Of a stretch of DNA of 26,457 bases, positions 7,836-25,362 are shown piece by piece (position 1 is the stretch's first letter; each line of letters begins with the position of its first letter). The DNA is taken from positions 1 through 26,457 of IMG/VR virus record IMGVR_UViG_3300020437_000389; one strand, 5' to 3'. Origin of the DNA: a virus. The notes beneath the pieces are model-generated. The model was not told where the DNA came from. It searched no databases and worked only from the letters and a program-made list of their open reading frames with translations. The translations under genes were made by a program, and so were the position numbers.

Positions 7836-9116
7836 CTATGAGTCAATTGCTAAATCAAATAAAACTGGTCCTGCTTCTACTATATTTCTGAAATAGCACT
7901 TATACTCTTTTCTTGATTTCTTTGTGACTGGATCTTTTACATTTGTACTTTCGAATGTAAACTTACCTCTAATCTTAAATATTAAGGCTTCTCCTTTTTC
8001 GCCTGTTGGATCTAAAGCTTTATCAAAAACTTTAAGTATTGGATCTGTGTTGTTTATTCTAAAATATTTAGCTTCAAACTTGGTAGAGAAAAACTCTACA
8101 GCTTTTTCAAACTGAGGTCCAAACTTAGCTTTCTTATATGAACCTTTATCTAGTTTCACCATTTCTATAGTGTCATCACCTTTTGTAATACCACCTTTGA
8201 GAAAACGTGCAATCACTTTCAAAGACTCAGCATCACCTTTTTTAAATATAGCTTGTAATTGTTTTGCCGCCTCTTTATATGCCGGCTCACTTGCATCTCT
8301 CATGTTCTTTGCAATTGCTGAACCTTCTAAATTCTTTGACTCTTCTCTTGATATAAATCTCTTTGTCATGTCCATAGATTGAAATATTTTATCATAATCT
8401 TTTCTTTTAGAACTTACATCTAAGCTTAACTTTTTAAATATTTTAATCTGATGATCGAATGTAATACCTGCTACCTGATCAAACTGCTCACCACCTGTAG
8501 TCTTCAATGATATCTGTTGATCTAATGGCTTACCATCTATTGTGAGTTTGATATCAGCTTTTGTTCCTTTTTGATCACCTGTACCATCTGAGTTTACAAA
8601 AACACTATTGATGACACGATTGATATGGGTGCCTATGGCATGATACTTTAGACGCTTATCATTATTTGCATACTTCATAGAACTCTGAAATATCTTTTTG
8701 ACTTTAGGATCACCGTCCCAGTTTTTCATGTCTGAGATATATTCCCATGATGGCGCTGGTATTGCTACACGAAACTTTATCTTATCGGTTATGTTAACTG
8801 TAACACCTGTCTCTTTTTTATCTTTTCTTTTGAGTTCTATTTCTTTTGGTAGCTTACCTCTTGCTATGATAAGTTTCTTTAATATTGTTTTTATATTTGC
8901 TATTTTTACTTCTTTTTCAGGTAACATGAAACGTGCAACAACCGCCGCCCCTAATATGGGCTCTGATATATCACCATAGTTTTTCTTTTTTTCTTCTGCT
9001 ATGAAAGATTTGAAAGTTTTTCTTTCAGAAATGTATTTCTCATATTTGTTATTAAATACAAATCTATCAGGCTTTCCTATCTTCTGATATTCTTTTAGTT
9101 GCTGAAAAGTTTTCAT
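7836..9116 (-). CDS. Putative PD-(D/E)xK-like nuclease with capsid-targeting-like N-terminus
   Basis: A 426-residue protein of unassigned family. Seen: two N-terminal stretches, MKTFQQLKEYQ (1-11) and KTFKSFIAEE (33-42), resembling the capsid-targeting sequence of T4 internal proteins (MKTYQEFIAEA); IAE at 39-41 fits the T4 gp21 protease rule (I/L-x-E). A central segment, KADIKLTIDGKPLDQQISLK (186-205), has D188 followed by a strand ending in S-L-K205, a layout found in type II restriction enzymes and other PD-(D/E)xK proteins in which the middle acid is altered. It is preceded by helix GTHINRVINSVF. The rest is basic. It lies between the kinase gene (TAATG overlap) and a small ORF in the hub operon. 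Being packaged and ejected, and cutting DNA, are both inference; a structural role is the main alternative. Confidence 0.55.
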   Translation of the reverse strand: MKTFQQLKEYQKIGKPDRFVFNNKYEKYISERKTFKSFIAEEKKKNYGDISEPILGAAVVARFMLPEKEVKIANIKTILKKLIIARGKLPKEIELKRKDKKETGVTVNITDKIKFRVAIPAPSWEYISDMKNWDGDPKVKKIFQSSMKYANNDKRLKYHAIGTHINRVINSVFVNSDGTGDQKGTKADIKLTIDGKPLDQQISLKTTGGEQFDQVAGITFDHQIKIFKKLSLDVSSKRKDYDKIFQSMDMTKRFISREESKNLEGSAIAKNMRDASEPAYKEAAKQLQAIFKKGDAESLKVIARFLKGGITKGDDTIEMVKLDKGSYKKAKFGPQFEKAVEFFSTKFEAKYFRINNTDPILKVFDKALDPTGEKGEALIFKIRGKFTFESTNVKDPVTKKSRKEYKCYFRNIVEAGPVLFDLAIDS

Positions 9117-9979
9117 TATAGTTTAAACCTTTTCTTTAAAGCACTTACACTTTGAGGTGATAGTGGTGAGTTTGCTAGAACCCATCTTATAACAGTAGCT
9201 AATATATCAGCATCTTTTAAATAGTTTTGTCCGCTCTTCTTAATCGTAACATAAGAAAAGTCTTTGACAGCTTTGCCTTCATATCCTGGGTGAAAGATTG
9301 TTTTTTCTCTATTATTTAAAATAACATGTACTTGTCCATCTACATACTTTCTACCAATACCGGTTCTATTACCAAGAGCCATAGATTTAATTCTCTGTAA
9401 CATATTCATGGCAGCCTTTTGATGTGACTGAAAAAGTATTGCATCAGGTACAACTCTATCTCTTTCTTTGTTGGCTTTTGCCGCCTGTTTGTAACTTGTT
9501 AGTACCCATACTAGATGAATATTTTTAGGCTCATAACCAGCTTCTATGAGTTTAGGTGCAACATCACTTATATCATTACTATCTTTCATAGTGATATCAA
9601 AAAGTATGTTTGGTAATCTATCTTTCTTAGCACCTGTTAACAACATGTCAAGTGTTTTATTTTTGATACCTTTTTCTCTTACGATAGTGTGTAGCTTAAA
9701 TACATCTTCAGGATTTCTTAGATTCAGTTTAGCTAGTTCTGAATCACTGTCTTTCATTTTCGCAAGCTTGATAAGAGCCTTCTTCCACTCATCAACATCT
9801 CGTACCTTAAATTTCTCGCCTTGCATGAAATTCTGAATCGCAAAACCTTTACCTGAACCAGCACCACCAGCCATAAAAACAATTTGCCCATAATTTTTAC
9901 CATTGTTAAATAATATTAGTTTCTCTTCCAGTTCTTGAAAACTATTTAAAGTTTCGTACTCTGATTTTGTTAGTATCAT
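9116..9979 (-). CDS. P-loop kinase, zeta-toxin-like
   Basis: A 287-residue protein starting at the ATG at 9979, which overlaps the stop of the upstream hub gene (TAATG); a longer in-frame start at 10006 is unnecessary. Seen: a Walker A motif GGAGSGKG at residues 38-45, then RDVDEWKK, LFDITMKD and HLVWVLTSYKQAAKANKERDR near residues 160-180, the arrangement of zeta-toxin/UDP-GlcNAc-kinase-like P-loop kinases, in which the Arg pair follows the nucleotide-binding core. The substrate is unknown. The gene sits among hub genes with a putative nuclease directly downstream, so it may be a virion-associated or host-acting enzyme. No antitoxin partner is seen, which argues against a classic toxin-antitoxin pair. 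The only GCWGC site found in the window is in this gene. Confidence 0.75.
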   Translation of the reverse strand: MILTKSEYETLNSFQELEEKLILFNNGKNYGQIVFMAGGAGSGKGFAIQNFMQGEKFKVRDVDEWKKALIKLAKMKDSDSELAKLNLRNPEDVFKLHTIVREKGIKNKTLDMLLTGAKKDRLPNILFDITMKDSNDISDVAPKLIEAGYEPKNIHLVWVLTSYKQAAKANKERDRVVPDAILFQSHQKAAMNMLQRIKSMALGNRTGIGRKYVDGQVHVILNNREKTIFHPGYEGKAVKDFSYVTIKKSGQNYLKDADILATVIRWVLANSPLSPQSVSALKKRFKL

Positions 9980-11346
9980 TATTCTATACCTGTATCTTTG
10001 ACACACTCTAAGACGGTATCATATATTTGTTTAGTTATAACGTGTCTACATTTAGTTATTAAATATTTACCACTTGTGTATTTATCTTCTTCCTTTCCTT
10101 CTTCAAACGATGTTGCAGGAGTAAACTTACACTCTATAGTATCGCCTACATTTAGTTCTGAGTTTCCTGGAATAGTAATAACTATTACATTATTTGTCAA
10201 GTGTTTTAAATAACTATCTCTGAAAGGATCTTTTAGAACATCTCTCTGAGCTAAAGGAGCTTCAGGTGCAAATACACTATCAACATCATGTCCTCTTCTT
10301 GATGTTTTCAAATGAACAATCGCATTGTCATCTGCACCACCAGGAATAGTTAAAGTATTTAATTTAGAAAATCTCTCAACTTCATCTTGATATTTGTAAA
10401 CTGTCTTATTAAAATCTTTTCTGAGAGGATCAAGTTCTATAGTTGTAGCAGAAAATAAACCATCTGTCATCTGCTCAGTTAAATCACTTTCTTTAACTCT
10501 ATCTACAGATTTTATAAAATATGCATTCATACCATCTTTGTATACATCAGTATTGTAAGATGATGGGTGGTAGAGAAACTCTTCACCTTTTGGTTCTTCT
10601 TTGATTAATTTACCTAAACTTCTAAACTGAAAGCCTAGAAAAGTTTCATAGAATAATAGTTTAGACGCAGTATCATCATCTACACCTTCGTCACATAGAT
10701 AACGAATAGCTTCTATAGGATTGTACATAGGAATCACACATTTATGTAAACCTGTAGTGGTTGTCAATCCTTGTATGCCAGTCTTCGATACTTCTCTACC
10801 TTCGTTTTTGTACAAGTTATATACTGATTTTAGTTCAGGCGTCATAATGTGTTCATCGAATATTATTTGTACGATTTCGTTTATCTTTTTACCTGAGCCT
10901 GTACCAAATGCTTTTGATATCTTTTTATCGATGGTATTGAAGTGTTCTAGTGAGTAACCTTCTATGACATATGTTTCATTACCTGTAGTATTTCTAACTC
11001 TTTCTTTTACACCATTTACTGCAAATAACATTTTATTCATAACAAATTCTGGATCGGCAGTTTTGAAAGAAACGTATATAATTTCACCACCAGATAATCC
11101 ATTTGACACAGCATTTATAAATCCAGCTGAGTCATTTACTGCTATTTCTATTTGCATGAAAGGTAAAAATAAATCTTGAAGTATGTTTACTTCTAAACTT
11201 AACGCTGATATATCTGTTGGTACACCTTCTTTATCAATAAGTTCTAGACGCTCTAGTATAAAGTCACCAGGAAATCTATAGTTCTCTTTTGATGTATCGC
11301 CCCCTGATGCAGAAGCTTTACGCATTATTGCATCTTGATAAACCAT
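9979..11346 (-). CDS. 27: Baseplate hub protein, T4 gp27-like
   Basis: A 455-residue protein (T4 gp27 is 391). Seen: an N-terminal beta-barrel type region (FILERLELIDKEG, LPFMQIEIAVNDSAGF), a charged middle region with ISKAFGTGSGKKINEIVQII, and a C-terminal barrel with ELNVGDTIECKF and GKYLITKCRHVI, the usual end of hub/late-control D-type proteins. It would form the trimeric hub ring that carries the gp5 spike and contacts the tube. Its ATG overlaps the stop of gene 53 and its stop overlaps the kinase start. The call rests on fold-type motifs and operon position, as gp27 sequences diverge widely. Confidence 0.75.
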   Translation of the reverse strand: MVYQDAIMRKASASGGDTSKENYRFPGDFILERLELIDKEGVPTDISALSLEVNILQDLFLPFMQIEIAVNDSAGFINAVSNGLSGGEIIYVSFKTADPEFVMNKMLFAVNGVKERVRNTTGNETYVIEGYSLEHFNTIDKKISKAFGTGSGKKINEIVQIIFDEHIMTPELKSVYNLYKNEGREVSKTGIQGLTTTTGLHKCVIPMYNPIEAIRYLCDEGVDDDTASKLLFYETFLGFQFRSLGKLIKEEPKGEEFLYHPSSYNTDVYKDGMNAYFIKSVDRVKESDLTEQMTDGLFSATTIELDPLRKDFNKTVYKYQDEVERFSKLNTLTIPGGADDNAIVHLKTSRRGHDVDSVFAPEAPLAQRDVLKDPFRDSYLKHLTNNVIVITIPGNSELNVGDTIECKFTPATSFEEGKEEDKYTSGKYLITKCRHVITKQIYDTVLECVKDTGIE

Positions 11347-21341: not shown

Positions 21342-21376
21342 AAAAAAAGAGTATCAGCGGTAACTGACACTCTTTT
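21342..21376 (-). terminator. Strong intrinsic terminator of the tmRNA/tRNA unit
   Basis: A 9-bp stem (21349-21357 with 21364-21372, one G-U pair, 6-base loop) flanked by A-runs and T-runs. Read on the minus strand it ends in seven T. On the plus strand it is followed by four T, so it may work weakly in both directions. It closes the RNA unit that starts at the 22078 promoter. Confidence 0.9.
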
Positions 21377-21396
21377 AAAATTCAAAAGAATTTAGT

Positions 21397-21576
21397 GTGG
21401 GAGGGACTCGCTTTTACCCTCAACTGACATCACAAGATAGCATATCTTCCATTTATGCCAGAACCTACTTTCATCTGGTATGATGATGTGAACTTGTTAA
21501 ACTAGCCCTTATTTCTAAGTATTCATTCTTCAAATCCTGGGTACCACCCCTAAGTAGTCAAGTTCGTCCCTCTTGT
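21397..21576. ncRNA. Structured RNA segment of unknown family between tRNA-Gly and terminator
   Basis: A gene-free stretch richer in G and C than its surroundings, with nested, perfectly matching arms. The outer stem is 21401-21407 with 21566-21572 (GAGGGAC/GTCCCTC). Stem A is 21490-21496 with 21559-21565 (GAACTTG/CAAGTTC), stacking directly on it. Stem B is 21427-21432 with 21484-21489 (ACATCA/TGATGT), adjoining A. Within B are hairpins 21434-21439/21443-21448 and 21458-21462/21474-21478; within A is a bulged stem 21501-21511/21551-21558. This forms a three-way junction. Several mismatches of the minus-strand RNA become G-U pairs on the plus strand, favouring a plus-strand RNA, yet the only clear transcription unit (tmRNA-tRNA to terminator) runs on minus. 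The T4 tRNA cluster also holds stable RNAs of unknown role. Strand left open. Confidence 0.5.
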
Positions 21577-21624
21577 CATCAGGACTCTTCCTTGCACCAC
21601 GTTTACTCCCGTCAGAGTAAATCT

Positions 21625-21698
21625 TGGAGCGAATGAGAGGATTCGAACCTCTGTCTTTTGGTTGGTAACCAAACATAATGCCATTATACTACACTCGC
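21625..21698 (-). tRNA. tRNA-Gly, anticodon ACC, CCA encoded
   Basis: A cloverleaf on the minus strand: acceptor GCGAGTG/CATTCGC (one G-U), a D-arm with GG in the loop (weak stem), anticodon stem TTTGG/CCAAA with loop TTACCAA, a 4-base variable loop, T-arm AGAGG-TTCGAAT-CCTCT, discriminator U73 and encoded CCA (21625-21627). U73 and the acceptor suit glycine, and the ACC anticodon reads GGU, a very common Gly codon in these genes. A34 in a Gly tRNA is very unusual in bacteria. It lies about 10 bases behind the tmRNA coding piece, so RNase P cutting its 5' end would also make the 3' end of the tmRNA. A 7-bp hairpin (21602-21608/21615-21621) follows. Confidence 0.9.
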
Positions 21699-21751
21699 AA
21701 ATTCTGTGAGAGTGTTTCTGTTCCCAAGTACACTCTCAAAACTCGGTGCGA

Positions 21752-21796
21752 TTAAGCCGCTAGTGCGTAATCCACAGGTGCAAAATCATCGTTTGC
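21752..21796 (-). other. tmRNA tag reading frame, ANDDFAPVDYALAA
   Basis: Resume codon GCA at 21796, then 13 more codons and TAA at 21752-21754: ANDDFAPVDYALAA. It begins AND, as alphaproteobacterial and E. coli tags do, and ends YALAA, the ClpXP degron of E. coli-type tags. The last two Ala codons are GCG GCT. Confidence 0.93.
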
Positions 21797-21982
21797 ATTT
21801 AGTTTAATGTTCTCCACTAACCTACTACCTACCTGTCGATCCTATTTCGCCCCCACAGGAATACTTGTTGATACGCCACTATCAAAAAACTCTAAAGTGT
21901 CTTACCACTCTTGTCTTCATCGAACTGTCTCAAGAACTGTCTCTTGTGAAGCTACGAAGGCGTTGAACTGAGCAAGCATTCT

Positions 21983-22043
21983 TGGTGGAGGCGATGGGTA
22001 CCGCCCCCATGTCCAGTCTAGTTTCATCTTAGTCTCAACGAAC
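21983..22043 (-). ncRNA. tmRNA acceptor piece (tRNA-like 3' half)
   Basis: From the predicted transcription start (about 22043) to the encoded CCA at 21983-21985, at most 61 nt. It carries a T-arm ATGGG-GGCGGTA-CCCAT (5-bp stem, 7-base loop), then CGCCTCC of the acceptor stem, A73 and CCA. The T-loop does not show the usual TTCRA. The exact 5' end is an estimate. Confidence 0.8.
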
Positions 22044-22047
22044 TCTT

Positions 22048-22078
22048 TATTTATAGCATATGATTCGTTAAAAGTCAA
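22048..22078 (-). promoter_or_regulatory. Promoter of the tmRNA/tRNA unit, sigma70-like with late-type -10
   Basis: Minus strand: TTGACT (22073-22078), a 17-base spacer, TATAAA (22050-22055). The same -10 reads TATAAATA (22048-22055), the T4 late element, so the unit may be transcribed both early by host polymerase and late by the gp33/gp55 system. The -35 lies directly beyond the stop of the 22080-22469 gene. Confidence 0.75.
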
Positions 22079-22079
22079 G

Positions 22080-22469
22080 TCAAAACTTAAACATTTTTTC
22101 ACCAGTATCTGCATAAATTTCTAATCCCCAACCATTACCAATAAAACAAGCCCAATCTTCATCTATGAACTCTACTAAACTCCATGTGCCTGTTTTTTTA
22201 TTTAAACCAAATGCTATTGTGGTTTTCATGAGTTCACCATTTTCACGTACAGAAACATTATTCCATGTCATGATTGGTTGCTCTCCCCATTCATCTGTGA
22301 GAACTTGTACAACATAATCGGGGTGCTGACACACAATAGGTTTTTGTGCATTTGCTACTTCATCTTTAGAAAACATTTTGTGTAGCTTTGTTATGTCTTG
22401 TTCTCCCCATGACATACTACCACAACTGACATAAAACACAAACACCAATAAACTAAGATATTTTATCAT
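22080..22469 (-). CDS. Exported protein of unknown function (signal peptide)
   Basis: A 129-residue protein. The first 20 or so residues are a signal peptide (MIKYLSLLVFVFYVSCGSMS); the C at residue 16 could be a lipobox cysteine but Y in the -3 position makes this doubtful. The mature part has two further cysteines (VCQHPDY and DWACFIG), which may form one disulphide, and a beta-rich pattern ending WGLEIYADTGEKMFKF. It starts inside the end of the upstream nuclease gene (17-base overlap). Similar small exported proteins occur in marine myoviruses; the role is unknown. Confidence 0.75.
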   Translation of the reverse strand: MIKYLSLLVFVFYVSCGSMSWGEQDITKLHKMFSKDEVANAQKPIVCQHPDYVVQVLTDEWGEQPIMTWNNVSVRENGELMKTTIAFGLNKKTGTWSLVEFIDEDWACFIGNGWGLEIYADTGEKMFKF

Positions 22470-24230: not shown

Positions 24231-24238
24231 TATTTATA
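24231..24238 (-). promoter_or_regulatory. Candidate late promoter TATAAATA before the FmdB-like gene
   Basis: TATAAATA on the minus strand overlapping the hesB stop, 24 bases before the ATG at 24206. The leader is short but holds AAGGAG. The match could be chance in this base composition. Confidence 0.35.
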
Positions 24239-24515
24239 CTGCGAAGGACTCACCACAACCGCAACTCGCCTTTGCATTAGGGTTAATTACTTTTAAATAG
24301 CTACCACCAAGTTCTTCTACATAATCTATTGTACAACCAAACACAAACATTTCTGCTATAGGGTTCAACCATAGATTAGCAACTGTAGCTGGTTCATCTG
24401 TTACGCCCCATACATATTGAAAACCTGAACAACCACCACCTTTCACAGTGAGTGATACATTAGGTTTACCAACTTTTTTGAGATATTCTTTTGCTCTATC
24501 TGTTAGTTCTATCAT
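24234..24515 (-). CDS. hesB: A-type Fe-S cluster carrier (HesB/IscA family)
   Basis: A 93-residue protein. The start is ATG at 24515 (ATGA overlap with the upstream SufT-like gene, GGGGT just upstream) rather than GTG at 24521. The three conserved cluster ligands are present: C29 in KGGGCSGFQY, and C85 and C87 in ASCGCGESF near the C-terminus, with an extra C61. A-type carriers receive Fe-S clusters and pass them to apoproteins. Phage copies occur in marine myoviruses. It is directly coupled with a SufT/PaaD-like gene, making a two-gene Fe-S maturation module. Confidence 0.93.
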   Translation of the reverse strand: MIELTDRAKEYLKKVGKPNVSLTVKGGGCSGFQYVWGVTDEPATVANLWLNPIAEMFVFGCTIDYVEELGGSYLKVINPNAKASCGCGESFAV

Positions 24516-24829
24516 GTCCACCCCATTATGATTTTAGTATCTTCTGGTACCATATCCATACTAAATGGTGGATTAAATACTAATTCTCTTTTAACAGATT
24601 TTACACCGACAACACCTTTTGGTGCTTCTTCTATATCTTTACATATTTGATCAGCGAAAGGACACATCATACTTGTCAGAGTATGTTGAATATAAACATC
24701 ACCATCTTCTGTAACTTCTAACTCATATATGAGTCCAAGATCCAGAACGCTTATACTAGGTATTTCTGGATCATGAACGCAACGTAAGGCGTCTATTACT
24801 TTTTGTGTTAATGGGCTAATTGATACCAT
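24512..24829 (-). CDS. SufT/PaaD-like Fe-S maturation protein (MIP18 family, DUF59)
   Basis: A 105-residue protein from ATG 24829; a GTG at 24853 would add 8 residues, but the conserved region starts after the ATG. Seen: the MIP18 pattern VHDPEIPSISVLDLGLIYEL at residues 18-37, TLTSMMCPFAD (C56, the conserved Cys) and a C-terminal NPPFSMDMVPE. MIP18/SufT proteins help deliver Fe-S clusters to client proteins. It overlaps the following HesB gene by 4 bases and the preceding gene by 22, so the pair is co-translated. It probably supports Fe-S enzymes of host or phage during infection. Confidence 0.88.
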   Translation of the reverse strand: MVSISPLTQKVIDALRCVHDPEIPSISVLDLGLIYELEVTEDGDVYIQHTLTSMMCPFADQICKDIEEAPKGVVGVKSVKRELVFNPPFSMDMVPEDTKIIMGWT

Positions 24830-25362
24830 GATGGGACACTTCTCTTTGTCCACTTTGCAAACGAGTTCTTTGCCTCTATGTAATAGTTGTGATATGACTT
24901 CAGCGAGTCGCCTTCAACAATACAATCTGGATAATGACTCATCGCAGGTGTGGGTTGTGTAAATGCTTTCTCTGGTATATTTATAGGTTTCATAGCTAAA
25001 GCAACTCTAAGCTTTTCATCTGTAGAGTGTCTTTTACCATATCGATATGTATACTCGTCACACAATGCAACAAACAAATCATAGAGCCATCTATAGTTTA
25101 GTGATGATTGTCTAGCCCATACGGCTGATGGGTGGCTAATGTGACAAGCAAGATAATAAGTAGCTTCTTTGTAGTTGTCATCAAATCGATATCTCTTGAC
25201 TTTACGTCCATTCTTAGATAGTTCTATACTCTCTCTACCATCTAATACTCTATGTGCTGTAGAAAGTAATTGTGCATATTCTACAATCATTTTTACCACA
25301 TGTTTATCAACATGCATTCTAGCACATTTTACTGGATCTGGATCTAAATAAAATATATTCAT
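24808..25362 (-). CDS. Conserved phage protein with FYLDxDPxKCA motif
   Basis: A 184-residue protein of a family widespread in T4-like and other marine phages: MNIFYLDPDPVKCARMHVDK at residues 1-20, HVVKMIVEYAQLLSTAHR, a central PSAVWARQSSLNYRWLYDLF, and a C-terminal WTKRSVPSWY. Conserved His, Lys, Asp and Trp residues suggest an enzyme, perhaps nucleic-acid related, but I know of no proven activity. There is no signal or membrane segment. It starts at the ATGA overlap with the small membrane-protein gene upstream and overlaps the SufT-like gene downstream. Confidence 0.8.
   Translation of the reverse strand: MNIFYLDPDPVKCARMHVDKHVVKMIVEYAQLLSTAHRVLDGRESIELSKNGRKVKRYRFDDNYKEATYYLACHISHPSAVWARQSSLNYRWLYDLFVALCDEYTYRYGKRHSTDEKLRVALAMKPINIPEKAFTQPTPAMSHYPDCIVEGDSLKSYHNYYIEAKNSFAKWTKRSVPSWYQLAH

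Follow-up and report, generated by a model that had tools for sequence, protein, structure and literature searches.

Two-piece, circularly permuted tmRNAs are known from alphaproteobacteria (Rfam model RF01849) and from phages. Among the latter, the closest described system is that of the T4-like Methylophilales phage Melnitz (MZ577097), which encodes a two-piece tmRNA (PMC9004378). In 2022, 53 two-piece phage tmRNAs were counted, 50 of them from marine or aquatic phages (PMC9004378), and a 2025 database that covers all forms has 79 unique sequences of phage tmRNAs (PMC11915505); earlier examples are listed in PMC4131195. The only RNA elements named beside phage tmRNAs in PMC9004378 are glutamine riboswitches, and the occurrence of both together was judged to be rare in the group of Melnitz. 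Another structured RNA, the manA RNA (RF01745), is known from marine and T4-like phage sequence (PMC2864571) and is reported to lie frequently beside tRNAs (PMC3692125). Mycobacteriophage DS6A also encodes a tmRNA-like RNA, which comprises little beyond the tRNA-like domain (PMC4131195), whereas the copy described here has a full, conserved tag frame. While two-piece phage tmRNAs as such have already been published, the locus described below adds a manA neighbor and a broad comparative case for functional genes.

The stretch of DNA that we analyzed (here, the window) is a 26,457-base IMG/VR record with 34% G+C that encodes T4-type baseplate proteins, gp32, gp59, PhoH, an exonuclease, and the late-transcription coactivator gp33. 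Its gene order is PhoH - exonuclease - tmRNA - gp33 - gp59 - gp32, with ssrA located between the genes for the exonuclease and gp33. Melnitz shares this order, including the permuted tmRNA in a marine T4-like phage, and in Melnitz, too, the tmRNA is closely followed on its 3' side by a structured regulatory RNA. The two differ in that Melnitz has a glutamine riboswitch (RF01739) 8 nt behind the tmRNA, while the lineage of the window has a manA RNA at this place, optionally preceded by a tRNA-Gly(ACC). A DNA search of named phages gave one 112-bp match only, to S-BM3, and no close cultured relative; the Melnitz ssrA was reached by a distant DNA search, in which only 20% of the 711-nt query was aligned by blastn. 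To collect relatives, we used a pattern scan of viral contigs, which returned at least 119 stretches, and searches with the neighboring proteins for syntenic loci. Of 70 related loci that extend at least 2 kb past this exonuclease gene, 54 have a permuted tmRNA on the same strand and at most 1.5 kb downstream based on ARAGORN; the tmRNA in L133 was missed in this count and recovered using Rfam. A permuted tmRNA in a T4-type genome had originally been called unusual. The gene is complete and real, but Melnitz has its tmRNA at the same locus, and in view of the 2022 count and the syntenic loci, the description as unusual is correct only in part. Copies from alphaproteobacteria share only short core stretches with the phage copy, and therefore no host can be assigned from the tmRNA. 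Elsewhere, the window encodes two adjoining Fe-S cluster assembly proteins at 24234-24853 on the minus strand (Fe-S_biosyn, PF01521, and FeS_assembly_P, PF01883), here in a T4-like phage, and has a weak Pfam match to a kinase-like Zeta toxin amid the baseplate genes (9116-10006, minus strand; 24.2 bits versus a cut-off of 22.3).

Two Rfam models matched the minus strand of the window, both across their full length: RF01849 (alpha_tmRNA) at 22082-21707 with 98.5 bits (cut-off 50, E value 4.8e-26) and RF04321 (tmRNA_permuted) at 22033-21752 with 84.4 bits (cut-off 47). ARAGORN called a permuted tmRNA on the same strand with the same tag, ANDDFAPVDYALAA. Thus, both models and ARAGORN returned the complete, circularly permuted ssrA of the original prediction, and the absence of a tmRNA model match that would have refuted it did not arise. 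Based on Rfam and ARAGORN, the acceptor piece lies 5' of the coding piece with the spacer in between (Table 1). The acceptor piece ends with CCA at 21985-21983, and G1 of the coding piece is at 21854, the same positions as those predicted. Between the pieces, a 7-bp acceptor stem (GGGGGCG / CGCCUCC) can be formed with seven of seven positions paired, G3-U70, and A73, exactly as claimed, and this stem is retained in the minimum-energy cofold predicted for the two pieces. The proposed extent of 21699-22078 held nearly base for base; only its lower end shifts, in that the coding piece ends at about 21707 in the Rfam match, and position 21699 belongs to the gap before the tRNA-Gly at 21698. An open reading frame at 21917-22114, which overlaps the acceptor piece and the spacer, was judged to be spurious. 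The phage RNA resembles the alphaproteobacterial two-piece tmRNA in piece order, inter-piece stem, G3-U70, CCA, and a tag of the form AND...AA, and differs from it in locus and promoter and in scoring lower with RF01849 than the host copies listed, which have 240-312 bits. This low score suggests that the phage RNA is shorter than, or has diverged from, the model. Altogether, sequence analysis confirmed that the window carries a complete two-piece tmRNA gene with its own predicted promoter in an uncultured marine T4-like phage.

Table 1. Predicted features of the tmRNA locus in the window
Feature	Position	Strand	Basis
Promoter, TTGACT - 17 nt - TATAAA(TA), sigma-70 type	22048..22078	-	Sequence, pattern search
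tmRNA acceptor piece: T arm and 3' half of acceptor stem, CCA end	21983..22042	-	Rfam, ARAGORN; 5' end inferred from promoter
Spacer between pieces, 128 nt, expected to be cut out	21855..21982	-	Between CCA and G1
tmRNA coding piece, G1 of acceptor stem to 3' hairpin (21737-21708)	21707..21854	-	Rfam
Tag reading frame, resume codon GCA to TAA, ANDDFAPVDYALAA	21752..21796	-	ARAGORN
tRNA-Gly(ACC) between tmRNA and manA, not present in all relatives	21625..21698	-	ARAGORN; Rfam 64.7 bits
manA RNA (RF01745)	21392..21619	-	Rfam 65.1 bits (gathering cut-off 55.2); same place in relatives
Intrinsic terminator, 14-bp stem, 4-nt loop, T run; ends noncoding unit	21345..21376	-	z -4.0 for 91-nt stretch

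The promoter had also been part of the original prediction, and its hexamers span 22078-22050 on the minus strand. At the same place, 26 of 31 distinct relatives have TTGAC-N17..19-TATAA, and the bases between the hexamers differ. In the window, as in most of the relatives listed, the -10 element has the sequence TATAAATA, and it includes the T4-like late motif, for which we used the form given in PMC9004378. Because the -10 element also contains this motif, it is possible that the predicted promoter serves early and late expression alike.

The comparison of relatives provided two lines of evidence for selection on the tmRNA. First, we scored the acceptor stem between the pieces in 103 distinct viral copies, with the arms located without reference to pairing. 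In total, 719 of 721 cells were paired, compared to a maximum of 691 in 2,000 shuffles; most of these copies come from a pattern search in which much of the G1 arm, but not position 5, was prescribed. Pair 5 varies among G-C, U-A, C-G, A-U, and G-U, while G3-U70 is present in all 103 copies and A73 is invariant; pair 6 is a C-A mismatch in the near relative L201. Second, we determined the proportion of variable columns in ten near relatives. The end of the upstream gene (69%), the spacer (38%, with indels), and the promoter (28%) vary most, followed by the tag frame (13%), the acceptor piece (5%), and the coding piece outside the tag frame (~2%). Among the six variable positions in the tag, five are synonymous and one is non-synonymous (Phe/Ile). 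Spacer length ranges from 3 to 369 nt across the viral copies, and the drift of the spacer beside conserved pieces is consistent with processing of a precursor into two RNAs. With near-invariant pieces next to a drifting spacer and upstream gene, the relatives support that the tmRNA is a selected gene.

Downstream, the tRNA-Gly(ACC) begins 8 nt past the tmRNA. It has been gained or lost between near relatives, being present in L124, L125, L130, and L201 and absent in L127, L128, L206, and L210. In L125 and L130, the anticodon stem has compensating changes and the anticodon is kept, and for this reason the tRNA appears to be functional. The anticodon ACC, with A at position 34, is not known to be common in bacteria. 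A literature search returned nothing on a phage tRNA-Gly(ACC) and nothing on a tmRNA adjoining a manA RNA. The manA RNA follows the tmRNA and the tRNA in L125, L130, and L201 and lies directly 3' of the tmRNA, with a gap of ~11-16 nt, in seven relatives (L127, L128, L131, L132, L211, L214, and L055). In the window, RF01739 gave no match at the gathering score. A terminator follows manA also in L127, L130, and L131, in the latter two with a sequence different from that in the window. The tmRNA is predicted to head a short and, based on our literature search, new noncoding unit of tmRNA, optional tRNA-Gly(ACC), manA RNA, and terminator. In contrast to the known manA RNAs, the one described here lies after a tmRNA, is closed by a terminator, and has no clear role as leader to a metabolic gene; in the window, it appears to be part of the noncoding unit rather than a leader, while it abuts an open reading frame instead of a terminator in L132 and L214.

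This arrangement raises the possibility that the unit is regulated, i.e., that manA senses a metabolite and, by acting on termination, processing, or stability, determines the level of the tmRNA or read-through into the next gene. The short and recurrent distance between tmRNA and manA, the riboswitch at the corresponding place in Melnitz, and the terminators behind manA are in agreement with such control. However, inspection by eye revealed no anti-terminator pairing around manA, the two relatives in which manA abuts an open reading frame do not fit, other phage tmRNAs that we scanned have neither manA nor a glutamine riboswitch, and the next gene has its own promoter-like site (21301-21274). 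We therefore consider this regulation doubtful.

We consider it likely that the window encodes a functional-type two-piece tmRNA of a marine T4-like phage that is transcribed, processed, and rescues ribosomes by means of host factors. The gene, its structure, the promoter, the selection on the tag, and the synteny are read from the sequence; expression, processing, charging, rescue, and a benefit to the phage are inferred along the following lines. Transcription from its own promoter would place the tmRNA at the head of a unit with the tRNA-Gly, the manA RNA, and the terminator; the spacer would be removed by tRNA-processing enzymes of the host; and the acceptor stem would hold the two processed pieces together. 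The host alanyl-tRNA synthetase would then charge the tmRNA via G3-U70. SmpB was absent from ten large related phage contigs, and therefore host SmpB would have to be used; together with the phage tmRNA, it would rescue stalled ribosomes, and ANDDFAPVDYALAA would be added as a tag for host proteases (use of the host SmpB, alanyl-tRNA synthetase, and protease is assumed). The likely gain is that ribosomes stay available during the breakdown of host DNA and mRNA and the loss of the host ssrA gene. Rescue during the destruction of host genes and mRNA is the most likely benefit. The original idea of rescue during mRNA decay, along with proteolysis redirected by a phage-specific tag, is plausible and resembles what has been speculated in the literature.

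A different role has been suggested for the DS6A tmRNA, which has only the tRNA domain: the phage RNA could be a decoy or inhibitor that blocks trans-translation in the host through binding to its SmpB or ribosomes. Inhibition of tmRNA by phage tRNA-domain RNAs is possible (PMC4131195, PMC11915505), and a phage without its own SmpB would compete for that of the host. Yet a decoy needs neither the full tag frame, in which resume codon and stop are kept and changes are mainly synonymous, nor the LAA ending, which 58 of the 66 distinct viral tags share. Given this selection on the tag, we regard a decoy as improbable. It is far less probable still that the gene is a functionless fragment recently acquired from a host by transduction, imprecise excision, or contig chimerism, since, although ssrA is a common integration site and ssrA fragments occur in prophages (PMC9004378), the gene is complete, lies between T4-type genes at a locus common to dozens of contigs and Melnitz, and has stayed conserved between diverging flanks. 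Rather, the covariation in the stem, the selection on the tag, the promoter footprint, and the conserved locus point to phage two-piece tmRNAs as working genes that are not relics. A tmRNA with an adjoining structured RNA appears to be regular in this lineage, as opposed to the rarity judged for the group of Melnitz, and a single conserved locus would make the reason for ribosome-rescue RNAs in phages testable.

The tag in the window, ANDDFAPVDYALAA, starts with AND, ends with YALAA, and varies mostly synonymously in relatives. Endings of the form [FY]A[LI]AA were found in 37 of 66 distinct viral tags, which come from relatives that are not independent, versus none of 35 distinct tags (YALAA included) in a general alphaproteobacterial sample, which may not include the true host. 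The Caulobacter tag ends similarly, with FAVAA. We treat the phage-typical ending relative to this general sample as a lead only. Considering tag and locus together, a modular noncoding unit of marine T4-like phages could link a tmRNA to an RNA that senses a metabolite, either manA or a glutamine riboswitch, and thereby adjust ribosome rescue or read-through to the nutrient state of the host, with the phage-typical tag ending steering degradation in a manner unlike that of the host tag; we offer this as a speculative and rather unlikely scheme. Six more distant phages with the same locus (L152, L161, L173, L174, L190, and L197) have far shorter tags of 10 residues, e.g., ANDAQFALAA and ANDELFALAA. 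Finally, NHBR02000136.1 (L234 and L246), labeled Muricauda sp. TMED12 and binned as Bacteroidota, has an alpha-type permuted tmRNA with the phage-style tag ANDNFAPSGYALAA and is probably a misbinned phage contig.
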